This document shows, piece by piece, positions 3,599 to 52,695 of a DNA stretch of 64,000 nt; the stretch's first letter is position 1, and each line of letters begins with the position of its first letter. The stretch comes from Sipunculus nudus (Eukaryota; Annelida; Sipuncula; Golfingiida; Sipunculidae): assembly GCA_026874595.1 (NCBI GenBank), contig CM049315.1, forward strand, positions 72,709,416-72,773,415, written 5' to 3'. The position numbers and the translations under genes were made by a program. Below the pieces are notes generated by a model. That model searched no databases, was not told the origin of the DNA, and saw nothing but the letters and a program-made list of their open reading frames with translations.

Positions 3599-3867
3599 CT
3601 TGCTTTTCTCTTTTTGGCTCGTTTTCTTTAGGGGTATGAATTGGGGTTATTTCTACATTTTTCAAATCATTTTTCTATTTTGAGTATTGACTCAAATATC
3701 ATAGTTTCATTTTTGATATGAATTTCTAAAGTAAGAAAGACTCACAGTAAACTTTAGTAACATTGTAGTAGATTGTATAGTCATATATTTTTTAGAAAAA
3801 AGTATTTCATATAGTAGAATATTGGTTATTTCATATTTTTATATGACAAACTCATAAAAAACTCAAA

Positions 3868-29511: not shown

Positions 29512-30775
29512 ACAAGATGACCAGAGGTCACGCGCTTGCCGGAAATGGAAATGATACAGACAGAGAGTGCATGTAGAAACAGTCATATGAATGAACAACA
29601 TTGTGGGGGCAGCAGAAACGGATAATATGTTTATTTATGCATGCTGACCTTTAACAGCTGCATATCTTTCTAGTGTAAAAGGGACCAAGTTCAAAATTTT
29701 TTTCATGAAAGCCCGTTAATCTCGTTTGACAAGAAGCAGTGAGACGTTTTTAGGTTTGTCATGTCAAGCTGGCCAAATGATATGAAATGCCGAAAACTAG
29801 ACCTGTCTAGCTATAAAAGCCGCTGAGTTATAAGCATTTGCATGAAATCTCGTGTTTTCTCGTTTGACGGGAAATGGTGCGAGCTTTGGCGAGAGTTTTG
29901 TCATGTCAGGTTTGTCAAATATTACAAAATGCCGGAAACTAGACCTGTCTAGCTGCAAAAGTCGCCGTGTTATCAGCATTTACGTGAAATCATGTTTTTT
30001 TCTCGCTTGACGAGATATAGTACGAGATTTGGCAAGACGAGCAGTTTTATTATGTCAAGACGGCCAAACGTTACGAAATGGCGAAAACTAGAGCCGTCTA
30101 GCTGTAAAAGTCGCCGAGTTATAAGCATTTCCGTGTACTCTCGTGTTTTCTCGTTTGACCAGATATGGTGCAGGATTTGGCCAGTCTTGTAGGATTGTCA
30201 TATCAAACTCTCTAAATGTTATGAAATGGCGAAAACTACATCTGTCTAGCTGTAAAAGTCGCCGAGTTATTAGCATTTCTGTGAAATCTCCTTTTTTATC
30301 GTTTGACGAGATATGGTGCGAGATTTGGCCAGTCTTGCAGGTTTGTCATGTCAAGCCGTCCAAATGTTAATGAATGCCAAAAACTAGACCTGTCTAGCCG
30401 TGAAAGTCGCCGACTTATATGCATTTCTGTGAAAATTTTTCCACATTTGACCAGATATAGTGCGAGATTTCGCCAAGTATCGCAGTTTTACTATGTCAAG
30501 TTGGCCAAATGTTGCCAAATGCCAAAAACTAGACCTGAGTAGCTGTAAAAGTCGCCTAGTTATAAGCATTTCTATGATATCTCGTTTTTTTTCTCGCTTG
30601 ACGAGATATGGTGCGAGATTTGGCCTGATTTCTTTTCTGACGAATCAACCTGGTCAAATGTTATGAAATGCCGAAAACTAGACCTGTGTAGCTGTAAAAG
30701 TCGCCGAGTTATAAGCATTTCCGTGAAATCTCGTTTTTTCTCGTTTGACGATAAACCGAGCGAAATTTGACGAGA
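29512..30775 (+). repeat. ~147-bp satellite array, first copy (about 7 units)
   Basis: Units are marked by a tagctgtaaaagtcgccgag-type box near 29809, 29949, 30098, 30247, 30395, 30540 and 30688, so the period is 140-149 bp. Each unit contains aaatctcg, tctcgtttgacgaga and cgagattt, a nested inverted repeat. The block is preceded by a unique-looking 250-bp head (gcttgccggaaatgg to ttaacagctgcat) also present at 45834. Because the period is near a multiple of three, long minus-strand frames arise; I regard them as non-genic. Confidence 0.9.
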
Positions 30776-31500
30776 CTTGCAATTGAATGACGTAGAACCA
30801 AGGGAAAGCAGCCTTATGCAAAAAACTAGACCCTTGAAACATAAATATTAACCGAGATGGAAACCAAAAACTGCATATTTTCAGATCGTCAAGCTTAACA
30901 CACAAATTTGGTAACCATGGTAACGGCAGCACAAAGCTACATGTGCGGAAGAATAAGCCAATGTTCCTAGTTTAAGATACAACGATAAAAATTGTGCCAT
31001 GTTAAAATTATTTTAGATTATGCAGAAAAATGATATGTTACAGTGTTTCAGGTACCACGCCCCCTGGTGGCTATTTCCAAAAAATGAAAAACAGATTTCG
31101 AGATAATTATAAATAACACAAAATATATCAATTTCAAAGCCATTGTTAAAAAAATGCAACCTGTAGGTCATATTTAATGAAATCTCGAAGACTCTCGTTT
31201 GACGAGAAATGGTGCGAGATTTGGCGAGATTTTCAGTTTTATCATGTCAAGCTGCCTATAAGGTACATAATGACCAAAACCAGACGTCTGTAGCTTAAAA
31301 ATTGACAAAGTTACAAAAAATGGTCGTGTTATTTCCAATTTCCATGATTTTTGCCCAAAAAATGTAACCATGGTAACGGCAAATTTAAGTAAGCTACATA
31401 TCAAAAGAAAGGCCAGGTGATGACGAAAAAAATGAGCTATTGCAGAAGTGGATAAGCCTATTTATAGCGAAGTTATAGTGCAAAAACCGTTAACCATAAC
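30776..31500 (+). repeat. Diverged flank of the satellite array with a CTCF-like site
   Basis: Degenerate units and a segment containing accatggtaacggcagcac and, at 31056-31070, cacgccccctggtgg. Paralogous segments are at about 36090-36480 and 44870-45200, which gives three related copies. Confidence 0.7.
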
Positions 31501-31929
31501 TGTCGTGACCTTGACGCTTGACCTCGGAGCAATGTTGACCAATAACAATAGGGCACCTAGAAATTGGTTTGTCAATCAAGCCTGTAAGTTTCAAGTTGAT
31601 TGATGCAAAAGTGTGGCCTGGAGAGTCGTGACAAACAAACTAGACGACCAAAAGTCGAACGCTTGCCGGAAATCAGAAGTGAAACACAGACGGACAGACA
31701 GAACATATTGTCGGTTTTCTATTAATGGAATGACTCTCAGGGACATTGCTGAGAATATGTGGCCTGTAAAATGACATATGAGACAAAAGAACAGGCAAGA
31801 AGACAAGGCTGACAACAAACGACGAACAGACAGACATACTGACTTTGTGAGACAAGATTGACACCAGATGACTTAACCTAGTTATGGAGAAGATTCAAAG
31901 GAAGAAAATGAGTTATAATTTATGTAATT

Positions 31930-33450
31930 TAGATTTTTAGTTTCGGAGGTATGGCGAATTAATGATATACTTGGGAGGCTCGACTGTAGCGCCCTCTGGC
32001 GGACATATTCCGAAGACGACAAATGCGTTTCGTATTATTAGTGTATGACATGAGATGTCCAAGTTTCAAAAGGATTCCGTCAAAGCTGTGGCCTGTAGAA
32101 TGCTATATGTAAGGCGTAAGAACCAGCAAGCAGGCGACTTTGAGGATCACGGACAAACAGATGAACACACTGACAAAGTGACAGAAGATTGAAACCATAT
32201 GTCTAATCAGGTTGTGGTGAAGACTCAAAGGAAGAAAATAAGCTATAGTTTATGTATCTGTGGCTTTGGGTGTAGAGATATGGCCAATACAATGGTATGT
32301 GTGTGAGGGTCGTGTGCAGCGCCCACTAGTGGCCATATCCCGATAATGAAAAATGTATTTCTAGATATTAGTGTAAGACATAAGATGTTATAGTTTCAAA
32401 AGGATTCCGTCAAAACTGTGGCCTATAGAATGCTATATGTGAGACGCAAGAACCCGCAAGCAGGCGAATTTAAGGACAACTGACAAACAGACAGACACAC
32501 TGACAAAGTGACTCAAGATTGAGTCCAGATGATTATTCCAGGTTATGGAGAAGACTCAAAGGAAGAAAAAAGCTACAGTTTATGTAACTGAGGTTTATAG
32601 TTTTGGAGATTTTGCCAAAGCATGATATGTTGGGAGAGGTTCGAGTTCAGCGCCCCCTAGCGGCCATATCCGGAAAACGAAACATTGGTTTTAAGATATT
32701 AGTGTAAGACTTAAGATGTAATAATTTCAAAAGGATTCTTTCAAACTGCGGCCTGTAGAATGCTATATGAGAGACCCAAGAGCAAGCAGGCGAATTTGAG
32801 GACAACTGACAAACAGACAGACACACTGACAAAGTGACATAAGATTGAGACCAGATGACATTACTAGATCATGGAGAAGACTAAGGGAAAGAAAATAAGC
32901 CATAGTTTCTGTAATTGAGGCTTTGGGTTTTAGAGATATGGTCAATATAATGATATGTGAGTGAGGGTCATATGCAGCGCCACCCAGCGGCCATATCCGG
33001 AAAATGAAAAATATGTTTTGAGATATTTCTGTAAAACATAATATGCATCAGTTTTCAAATGCTTCTTTAAAAAACTGTGGCCTGTAGAATGCTATTGTGA
33101 GCCGCAAGAACCAGCAAGCAGGCGAATTTCAGGACAACTGAAAAAACAGCCAGACACACTGACAAAGTGACACAAGATTGAGACCAGATGACATTATTAG
33201 TTTATGGAGAAGACTCAGAGGAAAAAAAAAATAAGCTATAGTTTATGTAATTGAGGCTTTGGGTTTTAGAGATATGGCCAATGTATTGATATATGTGTGA
33301 GGGTCGTGTGCAGCGCCCCCTGGCAGCCATATTCAAAAATTGAAAAAAAAAATTTCGAGATACTAGTGTAGGACTTATGATATGTCAGTTTCAAAAAGAT
33401 TCCTGAAATAATGTGGCCTTTGGCGCAAGATGAATGAAATCTCGAAAATT
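31930..33450 (+). repeat. ~330-bp tandem units, array 1
   Basis: Five units, marked by the agcgcc(c/a) sites at 31987, 32317, 32648, 32975 and 33311 (spacings 330, 331, 327 and 336). Each unit holds, in order, the CTCF-like site, a tttcgagatattagtgta box, ctgtggcctgtagaatgct, a gacaactgacaaacagacag run and ggagatatggcca. Confidence 0.85.
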
Positions 33451-34039
33451 CTCTATTCACGAGATATTTTACGAGATACTGCAAAACTTGTAATAAAATC
33501 TTGTAGTACTAGTTGAATGCTACCTGATGCAAGAAACTAGGTCTCTCTAGCTTTAAAACTGACAAAGTTAGAAAAATAAGACCCCTTAATTTCGAATATC
33601 ATGATTTTCCCCCTAAATTTGTAACCATGGTTACGGCAAATTTGAGTCAGCTACACACCAGATGACAGGCCTTGGAATGACGATTAAAATGAGCTATTGT
33701 TGAAGTAGATATGACTAATAGTCACAAAGATATGAAGAAAAAACCATTTTGAGAAGTTTTGATGACCTTGACCTTGACCTTTAACTTCTTTTGACCAAAA
33801 ACAATAGGGCACCTAGAATTTTGTTTGTCCATCTTTCCTGAAAGTTTCAAGGTGATTGTGGCGAAACTGTGGCCAGGAGAGTGATGACAAACAAACAGAC
33901 AGACAGACAGACAAACAGACTAGACGACCAGAGGTCGAACGCTTGCCGGAAATGGCCGGTAATAAGACAGCGAAACAGACAGACAGTTACTAGGCAGACA
34001 GACAGGGAACGTATAACACTGTCTATAGTTTTGGAGATA

Positions 34040-35310
34040 TGGCACAATGATGATTGCTGCAGCGCCATCTGGCGACTATTTCTAAAAGGACAAAAAATAA
34101 GTTTCGAGATATTTTATTTTTGTTATTATATATATTTGATGTATAATTAAAATTTAACCCCCGCAGAATACGACAGAGTCCCCACGAGGTTAAATGCATT
34201 AAATCTAGTTCCGGAAATGGCCGGAAATAAGACAGCAAAACAGACGGACAGTTACTAGGCAGACAGACAGGGAACGTTTGGATCTGATCAAATGAACAAC
34301 CGCTATCATGGTCAAAATGGAAGCACATTTTTATGTGATTTCGCTGATTTTCAATAGCCACAAATGAGTAGACAGACAGACGGAAAATAACTCCATGTGT
34401 AGGCAATGTACTCCTGTCATGGAGAATGGAAAGCATAAATAAAATAAGCGTCAGTCAATTAGAATAAATCTTCATATTTTGAATTTCAGGAAAAAGAAGA
34501 ATTTAATTGTAACCTATATTAGGCCCCCATGGTAACGGAAGAATATGACAGAGTCTTCACGAGGATAAACCCATTAAATCTAGTTTCAGATACTCGATCA
34601 ATGTTGTGACATTATCTATAGTTTTATAGATATGGCAAAATAATATTTTATTTTTTTATAATAAATATTTGATGTATAATTAAATTTAAACTTCTGCTGA
34701 ATATGACAATGTCCCCACGAGGAAAACGCATTAAATCTAGGTTCAGAAGCTGCAATCAATGTTGTGACACCGTCAATAGTTTTGGAGATATGGCACAATA
34801 ATGATTACTGCAGCGCCATCTGAAAGAAAAAAAATAGTTTCGAGATATTTTATTTTTAATAATATATATTTTATGTATAATTAAAATTTAACCCCCGCGG
34901 AATACGACAGAGTCCCCACGAGGTTAAACGCTTTAAAATTAGTTTCAGAAGCTGCAATCAATGTTGTGACACTGTCTATAGTTTTGGAGATATGGCACAA
35001 AAATGATTGCTGCAGCGCCATCTGAAAGGAAAAAAAATAGATTCGCGATATTTCAATTTTTTTTATATATATTTTATGCATAAATAAAATTTAACCCCCA
35101 CAGAATACGACAGAGTCCCCACGAGGTTAAACGCATTAAATATAGTTTCAGAAGCTGCAATCAATGTTGTGACACTGTCTATAGTTTTGGAGATATGGCA
35201 CAATAATGATTGCTGCAGCGCCATCTGGGGGCTATTTTCTTAAAGAAAAAAAATAAGTTTCCAGATATTTTATTTTAATATATATATTTGATGTATAATT
35301 AAAATTTTAC
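34040..35310 (+). repeat. ~203-bp tandem units
   Basis: Units are marked by gcagcgccatctg at 34060, 34811, 35013 and 35216 (last spacings 202 and 203 bp). Each has gtttcgagatattttattt, aatttaacccc, gaatacgacagagtcccc, acgaggttaaacgc, tcaatgttgtgacac and tagttttggagatatggcac. The 34060-34811 gap holds extra, more diverged copies and a GACA-bearing insertion. Confidence 0.85.
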
Positions 35311-36820
35311 TCCTGCCCCCAACTGCTAAACCAGGGATCAGCCCATATTTTGACACACCCAACTACAAAATCGGGGATCCGTCCCTGGTTTCAAAGATTT
35401 GCCAGTGGTTCCTGGCAACACAAGTGGCCGCACAAGGGGACACAATAAAAATCACAGGTGTGTTCCCTCCACATTTAGCGGCTTTTGTCCTCTATTCAAT
35501 GCTGCTTTGTGAGATTCATGCATGACCGCGCACGCCAACATGCAACTGTAATAGCCTTGCCGGCACTTACCGGTCAACCCTGAAGCCACTTGTGCTCACG
35601 GCAATTGGATGTATTTTCATCATTTGATGAAAAACGAGGCCAGATTTGACGAGAATTGCAATAAAATCACATGATGTGAATGAGAGTGTCAGACGCTGTC
35701 AAATGCTGAAAACTATATGTCTGTAGGGTATAAAATGACAGCATAATAGGCATTTGTTTAAATGGTCCATTGTTCTCGTTTGACGACAAATGGTGCGAGA
35801 TATAACGAGATATTCACTTATATCACTTAACAAAAAAATGAAATCTCTAGCATAAAATTGAAAGAGATATAGACATTTGTTGAATATTTTGTTCAAAATA
35901 TCGAATATTCTCGTTGGGCGGGAGATGATGCGAGATTTGGCGAGATTTGCAGTTTTATCATGTTAAGCTTCCGAAAGGCTACCAGAGGCTGAAACCGTAT
36001 ACTCTTTAACCTAAAACGTGATCGAGTATCAGCATTTCTGCGAAATCTCGTAATTTCTCGTTTGACGAAAAAACAGATCGAGATTCTACGAGACTTCCAA
36101 TTGACTGGATTAGAGCCAAAGGAATGCTACCTCATGCAGAAAACTAGACCCTTGTAGTATAAATATCAACAGTGATAGAAGCAAAAAACTTCTTATTTTC
36201 AGATTGCCAAGTTTTACCCCTAAATTTGGTTACCATGGTAACAGCAGCGCAAAACTACATGTACGCAGGAATAAGCCAACGATCCTAGTTTCAGATAAGA
36301 CAGTAAACATTGTGCCACGTTTAATATTTTTTTAGATATTGCAGAAAAATGGTAAGTTGCAGTGTTTCCAGTAGCACGCCCCCTGGTGGCTAATTTAAAA
36401 AAATGAAAAAAACAAGTTCGAGATAATGCAGAACAACAGAAAATATGTCACTTTTAGAACCTTAGCTGTAAAACTGCCACCTCTAAATCGTTTTTAATGA
36501 AATCTCGAAAAGTCTCATTTGACGATAAATGGCACGAGATTTTGCGAGACTTGCATTAATTTCACACAGAGCATATTAAATGCTACGCATTGCAAAAAAC
36601 TAGAGCTCTCTAACTTAAAAAAATGAGAAATTTGGAGGGAAATTTTCGAATTTTCTGATTTCCCCCCAAAAATACTTTACGATGGTAACTATTGACCGGA
36701 AAAATTTGCTAGCACTTGGAAAGCTAACATAAAGAGGAATAAAATGAGCTACAGATTATGCGGCTACGATTATTATTGACGAAGATATGAAGAAAATAAA
36801 GATTTTAGGTTTTTTGGTGA
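35311..36820 (+). repeat. Diverged mosaic segment with hairpin boxes and a CTCF-like site
   Basis: It contains further degenerate tctcgtttgacga boxes (about 35775, 35905, 36055, 36515), the CTCF-like site at 36375 and a segment parallel to 30776-31400. A stretch ttgacacacccaactacaaa at about 35350 recurs at about 43995. Same layout as 43990-45580. Confidence 0.7.
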
Positions 36821-36976
36821 CCCTGACCTTTGACCGTTCATGACCAAAAACAATAGGCTCCGAGGAGAACAGATCTTACACCTTACCTATAAGTTTCATT
36901 ACGATTCGTGCAAAATTGTGGCCTGTAGAGCACCGACAAACAAACAGACAGACAAACAAACAAACTAGACGACCAG

Positions 36977-38634
36977 AGGTCGAGCGCTTGCCGGAAGTGA
37001 ATTGACAGACAGATGGGCAGACAGAACATATTGTGGGATTTCTATTATTTGAATGACCCTCAGCGTTTGCTGAGAAGTTGTGGCCTGTAAAATGACATAT
37101 CAGACAAAACAACGAGGAAGCAGACAAAGCTGACCACAAAAGACTAACAGTCAGACATACTGACACATCTGTGATAACAGATTACCAGACTAAAGTGCCG
37201 AAGGTAAAGAAGAGCAAAATTAGCGATAGTTTATGTAGATAAGGTTTATAATTTTGGAGATATGGCCAAAACATGATATGTTGGGGAGGTGAAGGTGCAG
37301 CGCCCCCTAGTGGCTATATCCGGAAAATGAAAAATCTGTTTTGAGATATTAGTGTAACACATAAGATGTACCAGTTTTAAAGAATTACTGAAAAAAAAAA
37401 CTGTGGCCTGTAGAATTCTATATTTGAGACGCAGGAACCAGCAAGTAGGCGGATTTGAGGACAACTGACAAACAGACAGACACACTGACAAAGTCACACA
37501 AGATTGAGACCCGATGACATTACTAGGTCATGAAGAAGACTCAGGGAAAGAAAATAAGCCATAGTTTCTGTAATTGAGGCTTTGGGTTTTAGAGATATGG
37601 TCAATATAATGATATGTGTGTGAGGGTTATGTGCAGCGCCACCTAGCGGCCATATCCGGTAAATGAAAAAAAAAAATTTAAGATATTTTGGTAAAATATA
37701 TATGCATCAGTTTTCAAATGCTTCTTTAAAAACTGTGGCCTGTAGAATGCTATATGCAAGACGCAAGAATCAGCAAGCAGCCAAATTTGAGGACAACTGA
37801 CAAACAGGTCGAGCGCTTGCCGGAAGTGAATTGACAGACAGATGGGCAGACAGAACATATTGTGGGTTTTCTATTATTTGAATGACCCTCAGCGTTTGCT
37901 GAGAAGTTGTGGCCTGTAAAATGACATATCAGACAAAACAACGAGGAAGCAGACAAAGCTGACCACAAAAGACTAACAGTCAGACATACTGACACATCTG
38001 TAATAACAGATTACCAGACTAAAGTGCCGAAGGTAAAGAAGAGCAAAATTAGCGATAGTTTATGTAGATAAGGTTTATAATTTTGGAGATATGGCCAAAA
38101 CATGATATGTTGGGGAGGTGAAGGTGCAGCGCCCCCTAGTGGCTATATCCGGAAAATGAAAAATCTGTTTTGAGATATTAGTGTTACACATAAGATGTAC
38201 CAGTTTTAAAGAATTACTGAAAAAAAAACTGTGGCCTGTAGAATTCTATATTTGAGACGCAGGAACCAGCAAGTAGGCGGATTTGAGGACAACTGACAAA
38301 CAGACAGACACACTGACAAAGTCACACAAGATTGAGACCCGATGACATTACTAGGTCATGAAGAAGACTCAGGGAAAGAAAATAAGCCATAGTTTCTGTA
38401 ATTGAGGCTTTGGGTTTTAGAGATATGGTCAATATAATGATATGTGTGTGAGGGTTATGTGCAGCGCCACCTAGCGGCCATATCCGGTAAATGAAAAAAA
38501 AAATTTTAAGATATTTTGGTAAAATATATATGCATCAGTTTTCAAATGCTTCTTTAAAAACTGTGGCCTGTAGAATGCTATATGCAAGACGCAAGAATCA
38601 GCAAGCAGCCAAATTTGAGGACAACTGACAAACA
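36977..38634 (+). repeat. 829-bp recent tandem duplication
   Basis: Copy 1 is 36977-37805 and copy 2 is 37806-38634. They differ at only a handful of positions (for example gtgggattt/gtgggtttt, ctgtgataac/ctgtaataac, one A-run length). The junction at 37805 joins caaacag to aggtcgagcgc, consistent with unequal exchange at the GACA-type microsatellite. Each copy carries two ~330-bp units. Confidence 0.92.
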
Positions 38635-39240
38635 GACGGACACATTGACAAAGTGACACAAGATTGAGACCAGATGACATTATCAGTTTATGGGGAAGAC
38701 ACAGAGGGAAAAAATAAGCTATAGTTTATGTAATTGAGGCTTTGGGTTTTAGAGATATGGCCGATGTAATGATATGTGTGTGAGGGTCGTATGCAGCGCC
38801 CCCTAGCAGCAATATTCAAAAAATAAAAAATCCATTTCGAGATACTAGTGTAGGACTCATGATATGTCAGTTTCAAAATGATTCCTGCAATAATGTGGCC
38901 TTTGGCGCAAGATGAATGAAATCTCGAAATATCTCTATTCACGAGATATTTTACGAGATACTGCAAGACTTGTAATAAAATCTTGTAGTACTAGTTGAAT
39001 GCTACCTGATGCAGAAAAGAGATTACTCTAGCTTTAAAACTGACAAAGTTAGAAAAATAAGACCTCTTATTTTCGAATATCATGACTTTTCTCCCAAAAT
39101 TTGTAACCATGGTTACGGCAAATTTGAGTCAGCTACACACCAGATGACAGGCCTTGGAATGACGATTAAAATGAGCTATTGTTGAAGTAGATATGACTAT
39201 TAGTCATAAAGATATGAAGAAAAAACCGTTTTGAGAAGTT
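38635..39240 (+). repeat. Mosaic segment paralogous to 33200-33760
   Basis: Parallels 33200-33760 through the CTCF-like site at 38794, gaaatctcgaaatatctcta, ttcacgagatattttacgag and accatggttacggcaaattt. Further copies are at 40735-41190 and 42757-43210, four paralogues in all. Confidence 0.8.
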
Positions 39241-39679
39241 TTGATGACCTTGACCTTGACCTTTGACCTATTTTGACCAAAAACAATAGGGCACCTAGAA
39301 ATTCAATTCTCCATCATCTCTGAAAGTTTCAAGGTGATTGTGGCAAAATTGTGGCCAGGAGAGTGCAGACAAACAAACAAACAGACAGACAAACAGACTA
39401 GACGACCATAGGTCGAACGCTTGCCGGGAATCGGAAGTGAAACACAGACGGACAGACAGAACATATTGTCGGTTTTCTATTAATGGAATGACTCTCAGGG
39501 ACATTGCTGAGAATATGTGCCCCGTAGAATGACATATGAGACAAAAGAACAGGCAAGCAGACAAAGCTGACAACAAAAGACGAACAGACAGACATACTGA
39601 CTTTGTGAGACAAGATTGACACCAGATGACATAACCTGGTGATTGAGAAGATTGAAAGGAAGAAAATGAGTTATAATTT

Positions 39680-41190
39680 ATGTAATTTAGATTTATAATT
39701 TTGGAGGTATGGCGAATTAATGATATACTATGGAGGCTCGATTGTAGCGCCCTCTAGCAGACATATTCCGAAGACGACAAATGCGTTTCGTATTATTAGT
39801 GTATACCATGAGATGTCCAAGTTTCAAAAGGATTCCGTCAAAGCTGTGGCCTGTAGAATGCTATATGTAAGGCGTAAGAACCAGCAAGCAGGCGACTTTG
39901 AGGATAACGGACAAACAGATGGACACACTGACAAAGTGACAGAAGATTGAAACCAGATGCCTTAATCAGGTTATGGAGAAGACTCAAAGGAAGAAAATAA
40001 GCCAAAGTTTATGTAACTGAGGCTTTGGGTGTAGAGGTATGGCCAATACAATGGTATGTGTGTGAGGGTCGTGTGCAGCGCCCACTAGTGGCCATATCCG
40101 GAAAATGAAAAACTTATTTCTAGATATTAGTGTAAGACATAAGATGTAATAGTTTCAAAAGGATTTCGTCAAAACTGTGGCCTAAAGAATGCTATATGTG
40201 AGACGCAAGAGCCAACAAGCAGGCGTATTTGAGGACAACTGACAAACAGACGAAAACACTGACAAAGTGACTCAAAATTGAGTACAGATGACTACTCTAG
40301 GTTATGGAGAAGACTCAAAGGAAGAAAAAAGCTACAGTTTATGTAACTGAGGTTTATAGTTTTGGAGATATTGCCAAAGCATGATATGTTGGGAGAGGTT
40401 CGAGTTCAGCGCCCCCTAGCGGCCATATCCGGAAAATGAAAAATTGGTTTCGAGATATTAGTGTAAGACTTAAGATGTAATAGTTTCAAAAGGATTCTTT
40501 CAAAACTGTGCCCTTTAGAATGCTATATGTGAGAAGCAAGAGCAAGCAGGCGAATTTGAGGACAACTGACAAACAGACAGACACACTGACAAAGTGTCAC
40601 AAAATTGAGACCAGATGACTACACTAGGTTATGGAGAAAACTCAGAGGAAGAAAATAAGCTATAGTTTATGTAATTGAGGCTTATAATTTTGGAGATATG
40701 GCCAAAATATGATATGTTCGGGAGGTTCGCATCCAGCGCCCCCTAGCGGCCCTATTCAAAAAATGAAAAAACGATTTCGAGATACTAGTGTAGGACTTAT
40801 AATATGTCAGTTTCAGAAAGATTCCTGCAATAATGTGGCCTTTGACGCAAGATGAATGAAATCTCGAAATATCTCTATTCACGAGATATTTTACGAGATA
40901 CTGCAATACTTGTTATAAAATCTTGTAGTACTAGTTGAATGCTACCTGATGCAAAAAATTAGATCACACTAGCTTTAAAACTGACAAAGTTAGAAAAATA
41001 AGACCCCTTATATTCGAATATCATGACTATTCCCCCAAAATTTGTAACCATGGTTACGGCAAATTTGAGTCAGCCACACACCAGATGACAGGCCTTGGAA
41101 TGACGATTAAAATGAGCTATTGTTGAAGTAGATACGACTAATAGTCACAAAGATATGAAGAAAAAACCGTTTTGAGAATTTTTGACGACC
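39680..41190 (+). repeat. ~330-bp tandem units, array 3
   Basis: Sites at 39745, 40076, 40407 and 40734 (spacings 331, 331 and 327) reproduce array 1 unit by unit, including the variant spellings (tagcgccctct, cagcgcccact, cagcgccccct). The whole 31.5-33.8 kb block was therefore copied as a unit to 39.2-41.2 kb. Confidence 0.85.
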
Positions 41191-41360
41191 TTGACCTTGA
41201 CCTTTGACCTATTTTAACCAAAAACAATAGGGCACCTAGAAATTTAATTCTCCATTATCTCTGAAAGTTTTAAGGTGATTATGGCAAAATTGTGGCCAGG
41301 AGAGTGCAGACAAACAAACAGACAGACAAACAGACAGACAAACAGACATACGCAACTGAG

Positions 41361-41467
41361 CAACATGCTTGCCGAAATCGAAGATTTCCGGCAAGCAACA
41401 AACAAACAGACAAACAGACATACGCAACTGAGTAATATGCTTGCCGAAATCTTTGATTCCGGCAAGC
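41361..41467 (+). repeat. Pair of conserved hairpins
   Basis: Two ~29-nt hairpins, gcttgccgaaatc with loop gaa (41367-41396) and with loop ttt (41439-41467), each closing with ccggcaagc. They are joined by catacgcaactgag and GACA-type repeat. Confidence 0.8.
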
Positions 41468-41489
41468 AACAAACAGACACGACGATTAG

Positions 41490-41945
41490 CCCATAGTCGC
41501 CAGACCTAGGCTTGCGACTATAAAAAACGGTTCGGGTCCTTTCCTGAAGGACACACCGACTGAAACTTTGGACAGCAATCAACTGCATGCGCACAGACGT
41601 GCAGGCACGCGTTTTAGGTCTGACCAGGTCTGACCAGGTCTGAGGGCACACTGGAATGGTGACGTTCCTATGGCCCTGAGAAAATGGTCAGCCCGTCCCG
41701 TATATTTATTCACAAGTTTTTACAAGGAAATGGCCGTGGCCCCCGCTACGCCAATTAATTCATCCCGTCGGCTGCGGGCCTGAATTGACATTTGGCCCGA
41801 TGGACCTACACAAAACGAGCAAACTGCGCTGATTGTCGCTCATACCTACACGTGTCTTTGTCTTACTAAAACGCGTGTCATCGTGCATTCCTGCATGACT
41901 CTGTGTATTCAGTTTTCCCTCCCATTTATAAAGTTTATATGGACA
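41490..41945. other. Unique-looking insertion inside the repeat mosaic
   Basis: About 450 bp with higher GC and no match to the surrounding modules. It contains a triplicated aggtctgacc (41616-41643). Array sequence resumes with ggacatactgacaaagtgac at about 41941. No gene is recognised. Confidence 0.5.
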
Positions 41946-43210
41946 TACTGACAAAGTGACCCAAGACCGAGACCAGATGACTTTACCAGGTTACGGAGAA
42001 GACTCAGAGTAAGAACATAAGCTATAGTTTATGTAATTGAGGCTTTGGGTTTTAGAGATATGGCCAATATAATGATATGTGTGTGAGGGTCATGTGCAGC
42101 GCCCCCTAGCGGCGAATTCTGGAAAATGAAAAATCGGTTTCGAGATATTAGTGTACGACATAAGATGTAATAGTTTTAAAAGGATTCTTACAAAACTGTG
42201 ACCTGTAGAATGCTATATGTGAGACGCCAGAACCGGTAAGCAGGCGAATTTGAGGACAACTGACAAACAGACGGACACACTGACAAAGTAACTCAAGATT
42301 GAGTCGAAATGACTACACCAGGATTTAGAAAAGACTCAGAGGATGAAAATAAGCTTTAGTTTATGTAATTGAGGCTCACAGTTTTGGAGATATTGCCAAA
42401 GCATGATATGTTGGGAGAGGTTCGAGTTCAGCGCCCCCTAGCGGCCATATCCGGAAAATGAAAAATTGGTTTCGAGATATTAGTGTAAGACCTAAGATGT
42501 TATAGTTTCAAAAGGATTCTTTCAAAACTGTGGCCTGTAGAATGCTATATGTGAGACGCAAGAGCAAGAAGGCGAATTTGAGGACAACTGACAAACAGAC
42601 AGACACACTGACACAGTGTCACAAAATTGTGACCAGATGACTACACTAGGTTATGGAGAAGACTCAAAGGAAGAAAATAAGCTATAGTTTATGTAATTGA
42701 GGCTTATAATTTTAGAGATATGGCCAAAATATGATATGTTCGGGAGGTTCGCATCCAGCGCCCCCTAGCGGCCCTATTCAAAAAATGAAAAAACGATTTC
42801 GAGATACTAGTGTAGGACTTATAATATGTCAGTTTCAAAAAGATTCCTGCAATAATGTGGCCTTTGGCGCAAGATGAATTAAATCTCGAAATATCTCTAT
42901 TCACGAGATATTTTACGAGATACTGCAAGACTTGTAATAAAATCTTGTAGTACTAGTTGAATGCTTCCTGATGCAAAAAACTAGATCACTCTAGCTTTAA
43001 AACTGACAAAGTTAGAAAAATAAGACCCCTTATTTTCGAATATCATGACTTTTCCCCCAAAATTTGTAACCATGGTTACTTCAAATTTGAGTCAGCTACA
43101 CACCAGATGACAGGCCTTGGAATGACGATTAAAATAAGCTATTGTTGAAGTAGATACGACTAATAGTCACATAGATATGAGGAAAAAACCGTTTTGAGAA
43201 GTTTTGACGA
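41946..43210 (+). repeat. ~330-bp tandem units, array 4
   Basis: CTCF-like sites at 42097, 42429 and 42756 (spacings 332 and 327), followed by the same gaaatctcg/acgagatatt segment as in the other arrays. Confidence 0.85.
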
Positions 43211-43390
43211 CCTTGACCTTGACCTTTGACCTATTTTAACCAAAAACAATAGGGCACCTAGAAATTATGTTTTTCATCATCCCTGTAAGTTTCAAGGTGA
43301 TTGTGGCAAAATTGTGGCCAGGAGAGTGCAGACAAACAAACAAACAAACAAACAAACAAACAGACTAGACGACCATAGGTCGGGACTTGC

Positions 43391-45580
43391 CGGAAGTAGA
43401 AATTAGAAAGTCAAACTAACAGACAACAAACAGCAGAAAGGCAAAAAACATTTGGAACAGGTCAAATGACCAACCCCTATTGTTTGGAAAACATAAGCAC
43501 ATCTTTATGTGGTTTTACTGATTTTCAAAAGTCGCAGACGAGTAGACAGACAAACAGACAGACAGACAGAAAAAAACTCCAGGTGAAGGTCGTGTATTCA
43601 TGCCATACAAAATTGAAAGCATGAATAAAATAAGCCACAGTCTATTCGAATAATTCTTCATACTTTGAATTTCATGAATTGTAACCTACATAAGGTCACT
43701 ATGGTAAGGGAAGAATATGAAAGAGTAACCAAGAGGATAAACGCATTAAATCTAGTTTCAGATGCTACAATCAAAGTTGTGACACAGTTTATAGTTTTGG
43801 AGATATGGTAGAATAATGATTACTGCAGCGGCATCTGGGTGGTAATTTTCCAAAATGATAAAAGTAAGCTTCGCGAAATTTTATTAGTATGTTATTATTA
43901 TTATTATTATTATTATTATAATTATTATTATATGATGTATAATTTATATTTAACCCCTACCCCTAATTGCAAACCGGATATCCGTCCCTGATTTGACACA
44001 CCCAACTACAAATCGGGGATCCGTCCCTGATATTATAGTTGTGATTGTGCTTACCAGCAACACTATCTCTGCATTCCGTAACATTTCGGGGAGCCTCTCT
44101 CTTTGTTCTTTTTTTTTGTTTTTTTTTTAAGGGATTATCCTTTACAACAGGTCATTAAGCTCTCAATGCATTGAAAACCTTAAAGTGCGGCCATACAAAT
44201 AATGAAAAGAGGCCACCGTCAAAAGCACAGGTGGGATCAATCCGGATTGTGTCTTTTCATGGACCATCGCACATCCATAGAACAAAGCTCCAACTGTCAA
44301 ATGTAATGCCCCTGCCGACATTTACTATTACATACTGCCATCGCTTATGGTCATGGCAATTGGATGTACTTTTTTTATTTGAAGAAAAACGATGCAAGAT
44401 TCGAAGAAACATACAATATAATCATATAATGTGACCGAGAATGTTAGACGCTATCAAATGCTGACACTATAAGTCTTCCACATAAAAATAACACAATTAT
44501 AGGCGTTTCTTTGAATGATCCCATGTTCTCGTTTGACAAGAAATGGTGCAAGATATGACGAGATATTCACTTTTATAACTTAAAACTAGTCAAATGATTC
44601 TTGAACAATAGAAAAATAAAATATCTAGCATGAAATTGACCGAAATAAATACATTTGTTTGAAATCTAAAATATTCTCGTTTGGCGGGAGATGATACGAG
44701 ATGTGGCGAGATTTGCAGTGTAATCATGTCCAGCTTCTGAAATACTACCAAATGCTGAAAACTACTCCATTTAAGCATTAACCGTGATCAAGTTATAAGC
44801 ATTTCTGTGAAATCTCGTAATTTCTCGTTTGGCAATAAACCGAGCGAGATTTGACGAGAATTGCAATGGAATGGCTTAGAACCAAGAGAAAGCAGCCTTA
44901 TGCTAAAAACTAGACCCTTAAAGCATAAATATTAACCGAGATAGAAGCCAAAAACTACATATTTTCAGATCGTCAAGTTTAACCCCAAAATTTGGTAACC
45001 ATGGTAACGGCAGCACAAGGCTATATGTAGGAAGGAATAAGGCAATGATCCTAGTTTTAGATGCGACAAAGAAAATTGTTATATGCTTAATATTTTTTTA
45101 GATATTGCGGAAAAATGAAAAGTTGTAGTGTTTCCGGTACCACGCCCCCTGGTGGCTATTTTCGAAAAATGAAAAAACAGGTTCGAGATAATACAGAAAA
45201 ACAGAAAATATGTCACTTTTAGAATGTTAGCTGTAAAGCTGCCACCTCAAAATCATATTTAATGAAATCTCGAAAAATCTCGTTTGACGAAAAATGGCAC
45301 GAGATTTTGCGAGACTTGCATTAATTTTCCATAGAGCATATTAAATGCTACACAATGCAAAAAACTAGACCTCTCTAACTTAAAAAATGAGAAATTTGGA
45401 GTGAAAATTTCGAATTTTCAGATTTTCCCAAAAAATACGTTACCATGGTAACAATTGACCGGAAAAATTTGATAGCAATTGGAAAGCTAACATAAAGAGG
45501 AGTAAAATTAGCTACAGATTATGCGGCTACGATTATTATTGACGAAGATATGAAGAAAATAAAAATTTTAGGTGTTTTGG
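43391..45580 (+). repeat. Mosaic segment with (ATT)n, paralogous to 35.3-36.8 kb
   Basis: It contains a 203-bp-type unit near 43740-43960 with gcagcggcatctg, an ATT trinucleotide tract at about 43897-43931, a unique stretch (about 44040-44340), and then degenerate tctcgtttg boxes and the CTCF-like site at 45141. Confidence 0.7.
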
Positions 45581-45700
45581 TGACACTGACCTTGACCTTT
45601 CACCGATCATGACCAAAAACAATAGGCTCCGAGGAGAACCGATCTTACACTATATTTATAAGTTTCAGAGCGGTCGGTGAAAAATTGTGGCCTGTAGAGC

Positions 45701-45735
<35 letters not shown>

Positions 45736-45815
45736 AACAGACAAACAGACAAACAAACATACGCAAGTGATCAACATACTTGCCGAATCTTTGATTCCGG
45801 CAAGTAACAAACAGA

Positions 45816-47300
45816 CAAGATGACCAGAGGTCACGCGCTTGCCGGAAATGGAAATGATACAGACAGATAGACAGAGAGTGCATGTAGAAACAGTCATATG
45901 AATGAGCAACATTGTGGGGGCAGCAGAAACGGATAATATGTTTATTTATGCATGCTGACCTTTAACAGCTGCATATCTTTCTAGTGTAAAAGGGACCAAG
46001 TTCAAATTTTTTTCATGAAATCCCGTTAATCTTGTTTGACAAGAAGCAGTGAGACGTTTTCAGGTTTGTCATGTCAAGCTGGCCAAATGATATGAAATGC
46101 CGAAAACCAGACCTGTCTAGCTATAAAAGCCGCTGAGTTATAAGCATTTGCATGAAATATCGTGTTTTCTCGTTTGACGGGAAATGGTGCGAGCTTTGGC
46201 GAGATTTCCAGTTTTGTCATGTCAGGTTTGTCAAATATTACAAAATGCCGGAAACTAGACCTGTCTAGCTGCAAAAGTCGCCGTGTTATCAGCATTTACG
46301 TGAAATCATGTTTTTTTCTCGCTTGACGAGATATAGTACGAGATTTGGCAAGACGAGCAGTTTTATTATGTCAAGACGGCCAAACGTTACGAAATGGCGA
46401 AAACTAGATCCGTCTAGCTGTAAAAGTCGCCGAGTTATAAGCATTTCCGTGTACTCTCGTGTTTTCTCGTGTGACGAGATATGGTGCAGGATTTGGCCAG
46501 TCTTGAAGATTTGTCATATCAAACTCTCTAAATGTTATGAAATGGCGAAAACTACATCTGTCTAGCTGTAAAAGTCGCCGAGTTATAAGCATTTCTGTGA
46601 AATCTCCTTTTTCATCGTTTGACGAGATATGGTGCGAGATTTGGCCAGTCTTGCAGGTCTGTCATGTCAAGCCGTCCAAATGTTAATGAATGCCGAAAAC
46701 TAGACCTGTCTAGCTGTAAAACTCGCCGAGTTATAAGCATTTCCGTGAAATCTCGTGTTTTCTCGTTTGACGAGATAGGGTGCGAGATTTGGCCTGACTT
46801 GCACATCTATCGTGTCAAGCTGGTCATGTGGAAGGAAATGCCGGAAACCAGACCTGTCTAGCTGTAAAACTGGCCGAGTTATAAGCATTTCCGTGAAATT
46901 TCGTGTTTTCTCGTTTGACGAGATACGGTGCGAGATTTTGCCAGACTTGCATATCTGTCGTGTCAAGCTGGTCTAGTGGAACTAAATGCCGAAAACCACA
47001 CGTGTCTAGCTGTAAAACTGGCCTAGTTATAAGCATTTCCGTGAAATCTCGTGTTTTCTCGTTTGACGAGATACGGTGCGAGATTTGGCCTGTCGTGTCA
47101 AGCTTGTTTGGTGGAACGAAATGCCGAAAACCAGACTTGTCTAGCTGTAAAAGTCGCCGAGTTATAAGCATTTCCGCGAAGTCTCGTTTTTTCTCGTTTG
47201 ACGAGATATGGCGCGAGATTTGGCGTGACTTTCAGTTCTGTCGTGTCAAGCTGGTCATGTGGAACAAAATGCCGAAAACTAGATCTGCCTAGCTCAAAAG
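45816..47300 (+). repeat. ~147-bp satellite array, second copy (about 8 units)
   Basis: Paralogue of 29512-30775 at an offset of about 16,311 bp, with the same head segment. Unit boxes lie near 46117, 46264, 46413, 46562, 46711, 46859, 47008 and 47150. Units here are closer to one another than in the first array, especially from 46600 on, which suggests local homogenisation. Confidence 0.9.
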
Positions 47301-47696
47301 CTGACAAAGTTACAAAAAATGGTCGTGTTATTTCCAATTTCCATGATTTTTGCCCAAAAAATGTAACCATGTTAACGGCAAATTGAAGTAAGCTACATAT
47401 CAAAAGTAAGGCCAGGTGATGACGAAAAAAATGAGCTATTGCAGAAGTGGATAAGCCTATTTATGGCGAAGTTATAGTGCAAAAACCGTTAACCACACCT
47501 GTCGTAACCTTGACCCTTGACCTTGGAGCAATGTTGACCAAAAACAATAGGGTTCCAGGGTGTTCGGTTGTCAATCGTCCCTGTAAGGGTCATGTCGATT
47601 GCTGCAAAATTGTGGCCAGGAGAGCGCAGACAAACACACAAAAAAAAACAAAAAAACAAAAAAACAGACAAATGGACATACGCAACTGACCAACCA

Positions 47697-47900
47697 ACTT
47701 GCCGAAATCGAAGATTTCCGGCAAGCAACAAACAGACATACGCAACTGACCAATATGCTTGCCGAAATCTTTGATTCCGGCAAGCAACAAACATACGCGG
47801 GTGACCAACATGCTTGCGAAAATCGAAGATTTCCGGCAAGCAACAAACAGACATACGCAACTGACCAATATGCTTGCCGAAATCTTTGATTCCGGCAAGC
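47697..47900 (+). repeat. Tandem array of four hairpins with alternating loops
   Basis: Hairpins at 47697-47725 (loop gaa), 47757-47785 (ttt), 47812-47841 (gaa) and 47872-47900 (ttt), spaced 55-60 bp. Linkers are aacaaacagacatacgcaac and tgaccaatat. The arms are cttgccg-type left and cggcaag-type right with one bulged C. A further single copy is at 48523-48552. Confidence 0.85.
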
Positions 47901-48555
47901 AACAAAATTCAAAAGTTTTACCCCAAAAATAGAGAAATCTGGCAATAGCGCACTTTTTCACCTATGCGCAAAAATAAGCCTATTGACTCTAGTTTAAGGT
48001 GCTGTGATGGAAATGGCCCAATGTTTAATAGTTGTGGAGGTATAGCACCAAAACAAATGTTCATGTTTTTTCATCTGCAAGGCCCCCTGGCGGCCATTTC
48101 CAAAATCTGAATAAACAATTTCGAGATATTCTTATGTTACATAAAATATCTCAGAATCAGGGCGATTGCTGCAAATTTGAAAAATATCATGAAATTCCAT
48201 GATTTCTCCCCAAAAAATGTAACTTTGGTAACGGCAAATTTAAGTAAGCTACATGTCAAAAGAAAGGCCAGGTGATGACGAAAAAAATGAGCTATTGCAG
48301 AAGTGGATAAGCCTATTTATGGCGATGTTATAGTGCAAAAACCGTTAACCATACCTGTCGTGAACTTGACCCTTGACCTTGGAGCAATGTTGACCAAAAA
48401 AAATAGGGCACCTAGAAATAGGTTTGTCAATCAAGCCTGTAAGTTTCAAGTTGATTGATGCAAAAGTGTGGCCTGGAGAGTCGTGACAAACAAAGCAACA
48501 AAACATACGCAACTGACGAACATGCTTGCCGAAATCGAAGATTTCCGGCAAGCAA

Positions 48556-49909
48556 TAATAAAAATTCATCCCGCCCAAAGAAATCATTTTAAAAATTGCC
48601 CGGGGGGGGGTTAAGATGGGATAGAAGATCATATATATAGCAGTCATAATGAAAGTATAACAGAGTCATTTTCATATATTCTGTATAAATCAAGCAAAAA
48701 TTTATCCACAAGTGAGAACTAGGGGACGTGGAGCTATATACAGTAGACTACACTGGTTACCTGAAATCAGAAAGTTGTGCGCCATACCTCATGCACAAAC
48801 TACAACTGAATATCTTGTCTCCATACGTGGACCCTGGGCTGAATAATTTTTCATGGTCTTTGCAAACTGGGTGGATGTTTATGGAGCAGCGTGATGGAAA
48901 GATTGTCACCATAATTTTATTTTTAGATTGTCATTATCTGTTTAGGTGCAACACTTACAGCAGCTCAATATTACGTCCCGTCATAAACAGTATCATCAAT
49001 TATTTATTGGGTCATAGAAGATAGAATAATTCATGTGATTTATAGGTTCCGAAGACATGCAATGCCCACATGTGTATTTCTTTGAAATACAAAGAGGGAA
49101 ATAAAAAAAATAAAAAAGGAACTAATATTGATTGTTGTGTCAAAACAAAAAATGAAGTTTCAACTTTTTTCCTGATTCAGAATGTAACCAATATCCCCAA
49201 ATTTAGATGTGAAACCTTTTTTTGTTCAAAGACAAAAGCGATCAAACACGAGTACGGGTGTCCTTTCCCTCGAGGGCACTGAAATTAACAACTCTCATCG
49301 GACTAGGCTTGTATATTTCAGTGTCACAGCTGGTCTTGTTTACTCGATCCTGCTTTCAAGGTTTACATAGAAGTTGTGTCAATGGAGATGGTATCTCCTA
49401 TACGCATCCCAGAAAACATAATGGAATGCTAAAATATCTAAATTAACTGTTCAAATTATGTTAGAGATTTAAGCAAAGTGTAAGGAATTCTGAATATCAC
49501 ACTGGCCATTTGAGGTGTTATGTTGCTATGTTTTCCACTAACGTAAATGTTTATACATATTGGACCTCGATTTTTGCTTTAAAATCAAATATTGACCTAA
49601 AAATGACCAATTCATTTAAGAAAAATCGGCACCATATTTCTTTACAAAGATTATGCCTAAGGAGCACAAAAATGCTTTTAAGGGAACAGTCGAATAACAA
49701 GAGTTTTCATCAGGTCAATTTGCTTTCTTATCATTGTATATGGACCTATTTTTTTATTGTTTAATTATGTTTGTTGCACGTACGTTTGTTGCTCTATATG
49801 TACAAGTTATTTCAGTATTAAAATTAGAGAACAGTTAAAATGCCAAGGCAATCATATTGAGATTTCTATATATTTACTTTATGTATGACGTATCCAAATA
49901 TCAAAATAA

Positions 49910-50391: not shown

Positions 50392-50740
50392 TTGTAACGG
50401 GTGAAAATAGTAACCAGGCCCGAATGTGGGTTCGAACCCGTAACCTGTGACACACAAGTCAGACGTTCTACCGCTTCGCTAATAAAGCAAGCTTCACTAG
50501 CAAGGCCAGTAGGAACGCTTTAGTGTGTCCGGTTACACATACAAGTTGGATTTGAAATAATAATCAAATATATATTTGTTTAAGATTTAAGAATTTCGAA
50601 AGTATAACGGGTTTAAGTGTAAACTATTCTACCCAAAACAATGGGACTGATCCATAAATGATTAGTATGGCCGAAGTATATTGAAAGTTTTCATTTATTA
50701 AAAAACGGGAAATGGAAAACACTATGGTTCGTACACCTAC

Positions 50741-52285
50741 CTGCCACAACGAATGCCACGCTTCCGATACCCTGGGAAAACAGAACCATCCCTACACCTG
50801 GCGCTACCTGGTGGACGGGAATGAGATCAGCCATCACAGTGACGCGTTGAGCATTAAACCCGCTCATCACAAGGGTCCGCAAGCAGCACATGATCGTAAT
50901 CCACACGTGACTGGTCACGTGAGGTATAGCAAGGGTCACGAGACCTGTCATAACGCCCGCTGTACCTTGTAACAACACCCGGTACCTCTTGATGAGCTTC
51001 AAGTCAAAGAGGAAACCAAAGGAAAACCGTCCTATGATGTCAAATGCTCCAGCAGTTGTGAGGAGAAGGGCTACTTCCGCCTCCGTTGCCTCTGTCCTGT
51101 TTAAAAGTGCTGGCAGGAAAGTGTAAAAACTCATGTTGTTTATTGGCATTGAGAAGACGGTCAACACGTATATGATAAATGAAGGATTTTTCAATACAGC
51201 GACTTGGTTCTTTGGGGAAGGAAACTTCTTGAATATTGATGATGGCTTTCTAAGGGTCCCCTTCGTATCTGGCGCTCTTATTGTTGACGTCACTTTATCT
51301 ATCTCTACTTCACCTTTATATAACAGTTGGGATATACACGTTGTTTGTAATGAACTTAACTCAACTGCTTCATCATTAGATAATTCAGAGTGATCTATGT
51401 GACTCTCAGAATGTATATGACCATTTTCGCATGTCCCAACACAAGTTTGTTTTACTATGTACTTCTCAATGGAGTTCACATTATCTGTGAAATAAAGTGT
51501 TTGCAGCGGACGGTAGAGGGCGCCGGCTACGCACAGGTTAAAAGATAGACCGGCATACATTAATGCTGCTCCCGGGAATGAGTAGATATCAAGAATCCAT
51601 AACAAAAAAGGCGCCATGGCTACACAGCTGATGCTGCTTCCAAATGTGCTCAGAGCCATGGCTGTAGCTCTTTTTTTTACAAAGTAATGACTCACTATAA
51701 CCAAAGATGGAGCCAGTGTTAGACTGGACCCAAAACCTGAAAATAATAAAATACAAATGCGTGTCAAGAGAAAACCCAGCCCAAAAATATATCATACAAT
51801 CTTCAATATTTGATAAATTGACTTTATAGGTGTGATTTAACGTGTTCAAAACCACTTTAAAGGTTTTGTCACAAGTACATCTAATGCGAAGTCTATATTT
51901 TTATCAATTTTTTTTTAAAGTATAAACCCCTGTGTATACTTATTTATAGCACCTCCGACAGGTGGCGTGGTATCATATTTTCCTTTGATTAGTTACTCGG
52001 TTAATTGATTGAATGTTTATTTTATCTATAGCAACTTACAATTTCCTTGTTATTTCAATTAACTGGTATTAGCGCATCTTCGATCGCTGCTCAACTATGA
52101 ACATTTTTTCAGTGTGACACTGTGTAGAACAACTTACATTGCATGATATCCATAATACTCATTACTGATTGACATCCTTAGTTCCATAGTCTATTATTTC
52201 TCAAGGGTCACTGATGACATAGAGATTTACTGAATATATTTGGGAAATCTCTCCCCCCCCCCCTTCTTTCTCTGTCTCTCTCTGT

Positions 52286-52373
<88 letters not shown>

Positions 52374-52545
52374 GCATGGACGCTAAAATTAGATTCCTGA
52401 CCTGTTAGTACTCCCAATGTCACATAGAGGGCGTAAAGGCTTGACACATATGCCGAGGCAATACACCCTGCCGTCATGATTAAACTGCCTGTTATCACAA
52501 CACCCCGACATCCGTATCTCTTCGCCAACGAACTGGCAAGGGGTC
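50741..52545 (-). CDS. SLC16-type monocarboxylate transporter-like protein, two internal exons
   Basis: Exon 52545-52402 (144 bp) lies between a tttccccag acceptor and a CAG/gtcagg donor. It encodes TM segments with the KRYGCRGVV loop typical of monocarboxylate transporters and ends GVLTG. Exon 51736-50741 (996 bp) starts after ttattttcag and ends GTGGCAG/gtaggt. It continues in frame with FGSSLTLAPS and HYFVKKRATAMALS. The remaining first-half helices follow, then a long hydrophilic cytoplasmic loop, the KNPSFIIYVLTVF helix, RFSFGFLFD and several more helices. Both exons have the same intron phase and keep the frame, a strong sign of a real gene. The family moves monocarboxylates or related solutes with protons across the plasma membrane; the substrate here is unknown. 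The first exon (N-terminal DGGWGW-type motif) and the last helices were not found. The intron at 51737-52401 carries the C/TC/TA compound microsatellite, and the next intron carries the TRIM. Confidence 0.85.
52252..52370. repeat. Compound microsatellite (C)n-(TC)n-(TA)n
   Basis: A run of C, then about 30 TC units with minor interruptions, then about 22 TA units, all inside the SLC16 intron. Confidence 0.95.
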
Positions 52546-52695
52546 CTGGGGAAATCATACAAGGATGAAATATTTATAAAAAAATTCAAATCATGGCATT
52601 CCATTTGAAACACGGCGTAGAGTATATTCAAGATTTGAGTGCTATTTACGGTAAAAGGTACCGCGATTAATATCCAGCGCCCTCAGTTTTCTTAA

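Follow-up and report, generated by a model that had tools for sequence, protein, structure and literature searches.

HINE and DINE-1-like Helentrons (PMC4067079), together with the oyster Cg_HINE and bivalve Pearl elements (PMC7492417), are the closest described systems to the structure studied here, a tandemly repeated composite at about 29513-48555 in a 64,000-nucleotide stretch of the Sipunculus nudus genome (the window), in which many sites resembling the binding motif of CTCF are found. The known elements share with the present one the subterminal inverted repeats (subTIRs), a 5' inverted repeat and a 3' palindrome, and also a GTCY-type microsatellite, central tandem repeats, tandem copies and, possibly, T-rich insertion sites. 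Unlike in HINE and Pearl, the core repeat here is about 330 bp long with a CTCF-like site, and RFX-like and DR1-like modules have been added; the 3' subTIR also lies nearer to the end than the ~38-60 bp published for HINE (PMC4067079). The word CTCF is absent from the main text of PMC7492417, and in the covered part of the open-licence PMC literature neither HINE nor Pearl elements were found to be described as carrying CTCF-like sites. An element which would carry CTCF-, RFX- and DR1-like cassettes in exchanged slots is likely to be a new point.

DINE-1-like elements of Drosophila miranda supply binding sites for the MSL complex (PMC4067079), and there, as here, a HINE-type element distributes sites for a chromatin complex, the present ones being candidates. 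Binding and a role in dosage compensation are reported for the fly, whereas in this study three factor types are proposed from sequence. Mammalian transposable elements, such as SINEs (short interspersed nuclear elements), likewise spread CTCF motifs (PMC7156512, PMC9902604), whereas the present carrier is HINE-like, has several sites per copy and forms head-to-tail arrays in a host whose CTCF is far from the human protein. Enrichment of CTCF-like motifs has been described at invertebrate domain boundaries in spiralians (PMC10658182) and echinoderms (PMC13317027). No directionality of CTCF motifs was identified in Euprymna (PMC10658182), and in sea urchin and sea star the motif orientation is reported to be without pattern at domain boundaries (PMC13317027). 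The sites described here differ from these boundary motifs in being repeat-borne and known from sequence alone.

The CTCF-like array and its carrier element

An earlier note on this DNA had described about 25 CTCF-like sites in one orientation, mostly ~330 bp apart and spread by tandem repeats, as a possible directional loop anchor. Scanning of 30700-48600 with the JASPAR matrix MA0139.1 yielded 21 reverse-strand sites and no forward-strand site at 16 bits or more, and 23 reverse-strand and 3 forward-strand sites at 12 bits or more, while dinucleotide shuffles of the whole window gave on average 0.19 (largest 1) and 1.69 (largest 6) sites, respectively. The pattern GCGCCCCCTAGYGG, with at most two mismatches, was matched 20 times in the window, always on the + strand (31057-45155), against a mean of 0.09 (largest 1) in the shuffled window. 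A chance origin of the array is excluded by these shuffles of both the pattern and the matrix scan.

When two truncated copies (34815 and 35013) and one weak copy (43828), recognised by eye, are added to the matrix sites, the count of about 25 is a fair one. The single orientation is borne out, and so is the near-textbook character of the motif, its matrix fit being far above background. The three CCACCAGGGGGCG copies were located at 31055, 36374 and 45140; the spacing inside blocks was measured as 327-336 bp, and the sites are carried by repeats, namely the ~330-bp core repeats of a mobile element. The units had been said to diverge otherwise, but Tandem Repeats Finder reports ~330-bp arrays with 78-82% matches, and the motif is equalled or surpassed in conservation by other blocks of the unit. 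The array extent of 31056-48090 was also set too narrow, and the RFX-like and DR1-like modules beside the CTCF-like sites had been overlooked. Outside the array, three matches of at least 20 bits were found (29080, 50799 and 51507). Frames of a major facilitator superfamily (MFS) transporter adjoin the array on the minus strand (50691-52573), and the longer frame contains the sites at 50799 and 51507.

From its structure, the carrier is shown to be a non-autonomous element of the rolling-circle type with HINE anatomy, and the CTCF-like sites are its core tandem repeats. Five two-ended elements of 909 to 2001 bp, two in the window and three elsewhere (loci L036, L037 and L040), were identified with at most two mismatches. 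In all five, the 13-bp 5' subTIR GCTTGCCGGAAAT is present 2 nt from the canonical 5' end (exact in four, two mismatches in L036), and an inverted repeat complementary to it is separated from it by a short spacer. The 3' subTIR was found in four of the five, ending 21 nt from the 3' end, and a 3' palindrome of GACC-N3-GGTC type in every one. The canonical 5' end thus consists of TT-GCTTGCCGGAAAT, the short spacer, the inverted repeat and then a GTCT-type microsatellite; the modules follow in the middle, with the core repeats last, and the 3' end is formed by ATTTCCGGCAAGC, the GACC-N3-GGTC palindrome and CTAG. Both the (GTCT/GTTT)n microsatellite on the canonical 5' side and the ~330-bp core repeats are present. 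On the opposite strand the element starts with CTAGATGACC..AGGTC..GCGCTTGCCGGAAAT, and the DR1 module is followed by an (ACAG/ACAA) microsatellite and, in most free copies, by the hairpin ...GATTTCCGGCAAGCAA, past which the copies diverge.

Exact end-to-end junctions without an extra base were found 27 times in the genome (1.43-Gb assembly, 153 contigs, the window lying on contig C10), with none for the mirror pattern, and both element ends are therefore fixed. At all 22 canonical 3' ends the flanking base is T; many of these ends are internal and come after microsatellite. The canonical 5' flank base is A at 6 of 11 ends, the other five being three internal window ends, a junction in locus L005 and L036. 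The L040 copy lies in a poly-A run. The sites share one orientation because the core repeats stand head to tail within the element and the elements are themselves joined head to tail. The array is a by-product of a HINE-like element and not a designed loop anchor, and the earlier interpretation has been supported in part.

Throughout the genome, GCGCCCCCTAGYGG has 5,504 copies and its mirror pattern 2, while the strict consensus CCASYAGRKGGCGCYR has 1,586 copies and its mirror 8. Searches anchored on the flanks only returned 3,006 CTCF-slot, 873 RFX-slot and 752 DR1-slot copies, with no mirror match in each case. Twenty systematically spaced places, 200 kb in all, gave no unit with a motif-masked profile of the CTCF unit at E 0.001, while such units abound in the loci chosen through the motif. 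Element loci were fetched in two sets, L001-L008, which like the window units were chosen through the motif, and eight more loci on contig C1 (L034-L041), apparently isolated copies from the flank-anchored list. The module order of core repeats, part PAL, RFX and DR1 was seen in 14 of these 16 loci (L001-L008 as far as their stretches reach, L034, L035, L036, L039, L040 and L041). In the remaining L037 and L038, only a CTCF-like module lies between DR1-type modules.

Exchangeable modules and conservation of their sites

The motif-masked profile of the CTCF unit matches DR1-like modules along most of their length (E 3e-9 to 8e-4), and the DR1 profile in turn matches CTCF units (best E 2e-8). 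Because the masked profiles cross-match between module types, different central sites are seen to be seated on shared scaffolds. The first half of the RFX module is also common to a 148-bp module with a palindrome (PAL), with a best E of about 1e-7. The RFX-like site reads GTAACCATGGTTAC or GTTACCATGGTAAC, and the DR1-like site reads AGGTCAAAGGTCA plus additional half-sites; both factor names are presumed from known consensus sites. Three of the four module types thus match in sequence the sites of CTCF, RFX and DR1-type nuclear receptors, by which they may be bound.

When modules were classed by their flanks only, with the motif masked, the expected core was found in 63 of 66 CTCF, 31 of 32 DR1 and 28 of 29 RFX modules, and in 15 of 18, 7 of 8 and 5 of 6, respectively, when only the eight flank-picked loci were counted. 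For comparison, CTCF-, DR1- and RFX-type cores occurred in 106, 0 and 20 of 2000 random 90-mers taken from positions 1-29000 of the window. A pooled conservation test showed no motif effect (0.367 vs 0.365) because DR1-slot modules were mixed with CTCF-slot modules, and it was repeated with the classes separated by flanks. Between clusters, the motif was then less diverged than the flank for DR1 (0.079 vs 0.312, 66 of 66 pairs), RFX (0.202 vs 0.351, 61 of 78 pairs) and CTCF (0.233 vs 0.303, 294 of 378 pairs). Among windows of equal length, the DR1 site ranks 6th of 209 and the RFX site 13th of 182 in conservation. For the CTCF slot, a set of 70 distinct anchored rows, all on C1 and drawn from 73 of the 100 matches listed, gave a divergence between subfamily consensuses of 0.158 for the motif vs 0.343 for the flank (98 of 105 pairs).

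The fit to CTCF was assessed with 26 cluster motifs, whose mean score of 20.4 bits exceeds the 16.8 bits obtained by simulated substitution (0 of 1000 runs as high) and the 18.2 bits obtained with CpG-weighted mutation (11 of 1000). The main differences between the core-repeat motif and the vertebrate matrix are at positions 5-6, which we take, as a lead only, to be on the side read by fingers 6-7. The host CTCF is encoded in one open frame with 11 fingers (L009:58-2721; C11, 67.04 Mb), and its best match in the PDB is CTCF 7w1m (E 1.6e-113). Its fingers are 56% identical to those of human CTCF (the human sequence used agrees by eye with 7w1m), and fingers 3-5 have kept all 12 of the 12 human contact residues (-1, 2, 3, 6). 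The contact residues of fingers 1, 2, 8, 9 and 11 are quite unlike the human ones.

A second repeat with CTCF-like sites was found in the 200-kb sample, in which the matrix scored 36 sites at 16 bits or more, against 0.87 in shuffles. Twenty-seven of them fall in a 339-bp satellite at L025:28-8416 (C12, 5.0 Mb), which has 27 units in 9 kb and one CTCF-like site per unit. The commonest forms of this site are TGACCTCCAGRTGGCGCYA and belong to an AGRTGGCGC form, and its most variable positions are those at which the matrix is loose. The satellite is unrelated to the HINE-like element, and its profile did not match the window or L001-L008. With the motif masked, relatives that are both diverged and dispersed were detected in L020, L030 and L031. 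Motif and surroundings have diverged by 0.053 and 0.063; since motif decay is about that of the flank, this satellite alone gives no conservation signal.

Proposed mechanism and alternative explanations

We consider it moderately probable that a HINE-type element spreads exchangeable modules with CTCF-, RFX- and DR1-type sites which aid its own propagation. Its building blocks are exchangeable modules of ~150-330 bp with a single site at the centre of each, the CTCF-like sites lying in the core repeats and the RFX-like and DR1-type receptor-like sites in the section beside the microsatellite. It may propagate by a Rep/helicase supplied from elsewhere in the genome together with head-to-tail amplification; Rep-driven spread is suggested by the end structure, by the exact joining of elements head to tail and by the Helitron Rep genes that the genome contains. 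Helitron_like_N has 143 genome matches, some in frames of more than 2,200 aa; Rep copies that look intact lie, for example, at C4:36.17 Mb and C11:50.39 Mb. The sites could help source elements to propagate, for example through germ-line accessibility or insulation, and would therefore persist in founder lineages while decaying in ordinary copies; whatever they do to host loops would be a side effect only. It may also be proposed, tentatively and with more doubt than belief, that a transposon family made of exchangeable cassettes, most of them sites for ancient animal regulators, exploits host proteins to propagate itself and in doing so scatters oriented CTCF sites by the thousand, and that an unrelated satellite has converged on the same solution.

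These possibilities bear on the origin of CTCF sites and on the role of their orientation outside vertebrates. A non-vertebrate-like CTCF, together with thousands of repeat-borne, consensus-like sites in the same orientation, makes this genome a natural experiment, and if the sites are bound, insertion polymorphisms could reveal whether loops are stopped by oriented CTCF arrays. If a single scaffold does hold exchangeable factor sites, the element would be a clear example of mobile DNA put together from regulatory motifs of the host.

Several results weigh against the proposed spread of regulatory modules. The link to CTCF, RFX and nuclear receptors is one of sequence match. Column entropy in the CTCF slot does not follow the information content of the CTCF matrix (Spearman 0.08, p 0.75), and the CTAGCAG subfamily, with 12 of the 70 distinct rows, is without a base which the matrix requires. 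Host CTCF has kept only 1 of 4 human contact residues in finger 6 and 2 of 4 in finger 7. The PAL palindrome has no nameable factor, the DR1-like cassette may be nothing more than repeated TGACCT, and the X-box nothing more than a palindrome. The choice of window units and L001-L008 through the motif favours intact cores. The CTCF block ranks 36th of 205 in conservation, behind the scaffold block AAATAAGCTATAGTTTATG of the same unit. The order of the modules also varies: L037 and L038 are without an RFX module, B-type sites of the window have an RFX module on one side and a PAL module on the other, and no CTCF-like repeat is present in the element at 45816-47728. Further, the Helitron_like_N matches are only candidate partners of the element. 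Finally, inside subfamilies the decay of the motif is not slower than that of the flank (45/1102, 0.041, vs 69/2030, 0.034; with looser clustering, 63/1292 vs 136/2380). The suggestion of the earlier note that the motif may be better conserved than its surroundings thus held between subfamilies, where it diverges less, and failed within them. This contrast fits a constraint on source elements and not an upkeep of single copies.

The same observations can be read to mean that the blocks serve the element in another way, through its own Rep, another zinc-finger protein, recombination or secondary structure, with the resemblance to CTCF, RFX and DR1 sites coincidental or secondary. Column variability which ignores the CTCF matrix, scaffold blocks which are equally conserved, an X-box which is a palindrome, a DR1 cassette which is a repeated hexamer and a PAL module without a known factor would all be accounted for. 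The CTCF query also gave 325 zinc-finger matches in the genome, and therefore other candidate binders exist. Such a use is nevertheless rather unlikely, as one element holds three separate good matches to conserved factors, the substitutions in the CTCF slot preserve the CTCF score above chance, and the unrelated satellite has its site in the AGRTGGCGC form. Moreover, among the 100 strict-consensus matches listed, all on C1, 52 are element variants and 48 are other variants of the site. Many of the listed C2H2 zinc-finger matches to the CTCF query lie on C16, at about 12-62 Mb.

A neutral, satellite-bearing element, with the motifs as passengers and the apparent conservation resulting from founder effects, gene conversion or uneven mutation along the unit, is improbable. 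Tandem arrays do homogenise through exchange, and such neutrality would agree with the unslowed motif decay within subfamilies and with the similar motif and flank values of the 339-bp satellite (0.053 vs 0.063). Gene conversion, however, hits motif and flank alike, yet the motifs diverge less between founders, the CTCF-like block containing two CpGs; in the DR1 slot this holds for every one of the 66 pairs.

A host-maintained, vertebrate-like directional loop anchor or boundary, to which the 21 same-orientation sites and the presence of a host CTCF gene would lend themselves, is very improbable, and a purpose-built one is rejected, given the same core and modules in thousands of copies, the within-subfamily decay, an orientation explained by head-to-tail amplification with its junctions, and echinoderm boundaries at which CTCF orientation has no pattern (PMC13317027).

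Map of the composite and neighbouring features

End motifs and the module map show the whole composite (29513-48555, minus strand; C10:72.739-72.758 Mb) to consist of several HINE-like elements fused head to tail. Its canonical 5' end (TTGCTTGCCGGAAATC) is at 48555 and its canonical 3' end at 29513, and internal element starts are found at 31640, 33920, 36965, 39398 and 45816. The terminal hairpin, made of the 13-bp subTIR and its inverted repeat 2 nt from the canonical 5' end, occupies 48531-48555 on the minus strand, with internal copies at 41374, 47704 and 47819. Two elements of the composite, both on the minus strand, were recognised by ends and modules. The first (39398-41398, 2001 bp) contains four CTCF-like core repeats, part PAL, RFX, DR1, microsatellite and terminal hairpin; the second (45816-47728, 1913 bp) contains a 148-bp PAL array, RFX and a degenerate DR1.

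The core repeats, whose CTCF-like core is AGGGGGCGC, form four blocks on the minus strand. Five ~330-bp repeats are present at 31890-33437 (matrix matches starting at 31987, 32317, 32648, 32975 and 33311) and five at 37201-38919 (37298, 37634, 38127, 38462 and 38794), where repeats 1 and 2, and likewise 3 and 4, are near-identical duplicates. Four more lie at 39648-40859 (39745, 40076, 40407 and 40734) and three at 41999-42877 (42097, 42429 and 42756). Other CTCF-like sites, also on the minus strand, belong to further types: B-type TAGCCACCAGGGGGCGTGG in a diverged module at 31055-31073, with others at 36374 and 45140; C-type, a variant of AGATGGCGC, in ~203-bp repeats at 34060-34078, with relatives at 34815 and 35013 (the truncated copies), 35216 and 43828; and D-type TGGCCGCCAGGGGGCCTTG at 48078-48096.

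The RFX X-box-like palindrome GTAACCATGGTTAC lies at 41044-41057 (no strand assigned), with exact or near copies at 30911, 31364, 33621, 36229, 39103, 43066, 44995 and 45439. The nuclear-receptor-like cassette AGGTCAAAGGTCAAGGTCAAGGTCA, a DR1 plus half-sites, is located at 39245-39269 on the minus strand; more such cassettes occur near 33766, 36819, 41192, 43210 and 45586, and degenerate ones near 31507, 47511 and 48367. The 148-bp PAL modules, with the palindrome TCTCGT-N3-ACGAGA, extend over 46084-47255 on the minus strand and have a sister array at 29774-30799. The Rfam search gave no match, the tRNA scan of the window found none, and the PDB search with the 13.4-kb open reading frame was likewise without a match.

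A terminal inverted repeat transposon was considered at L036 from a 51-nt inverted repeat and rejected, as its arms fall outside the element ends. This repeat (1097-1147 / 2720-2770, 94% complementary) flanks the element and is perhaps an older palindromic element hosting the insertion. In L035, a tRNA-like SINE, recognised by eye in the left flank of the element (minus strand), splits the first core repeat. The stretch C1:65.0-67.7 Mb, possibly pericentromeric, holds 29 of the 100 strict CTCF-consensus matches listed and 9 of the 15 Helitron_like_N matches of C1, and within it, at 66.76-66.80 Mb, RFX-slot copies stand in a run with a period of ~1.64 kb.

Elsewhere in the window, a Ty3/Gypsy-like element at 3847-8247 has a SCAN-domain match in its gag-like frame and an integrase frame upstream of the RNase H frame, an unusual order, known from Gmr1-like elements. 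Finally, a 91-bp unit rich in CACGTG E-boxes is present at 59788-59970 in two copies with 100% identity.

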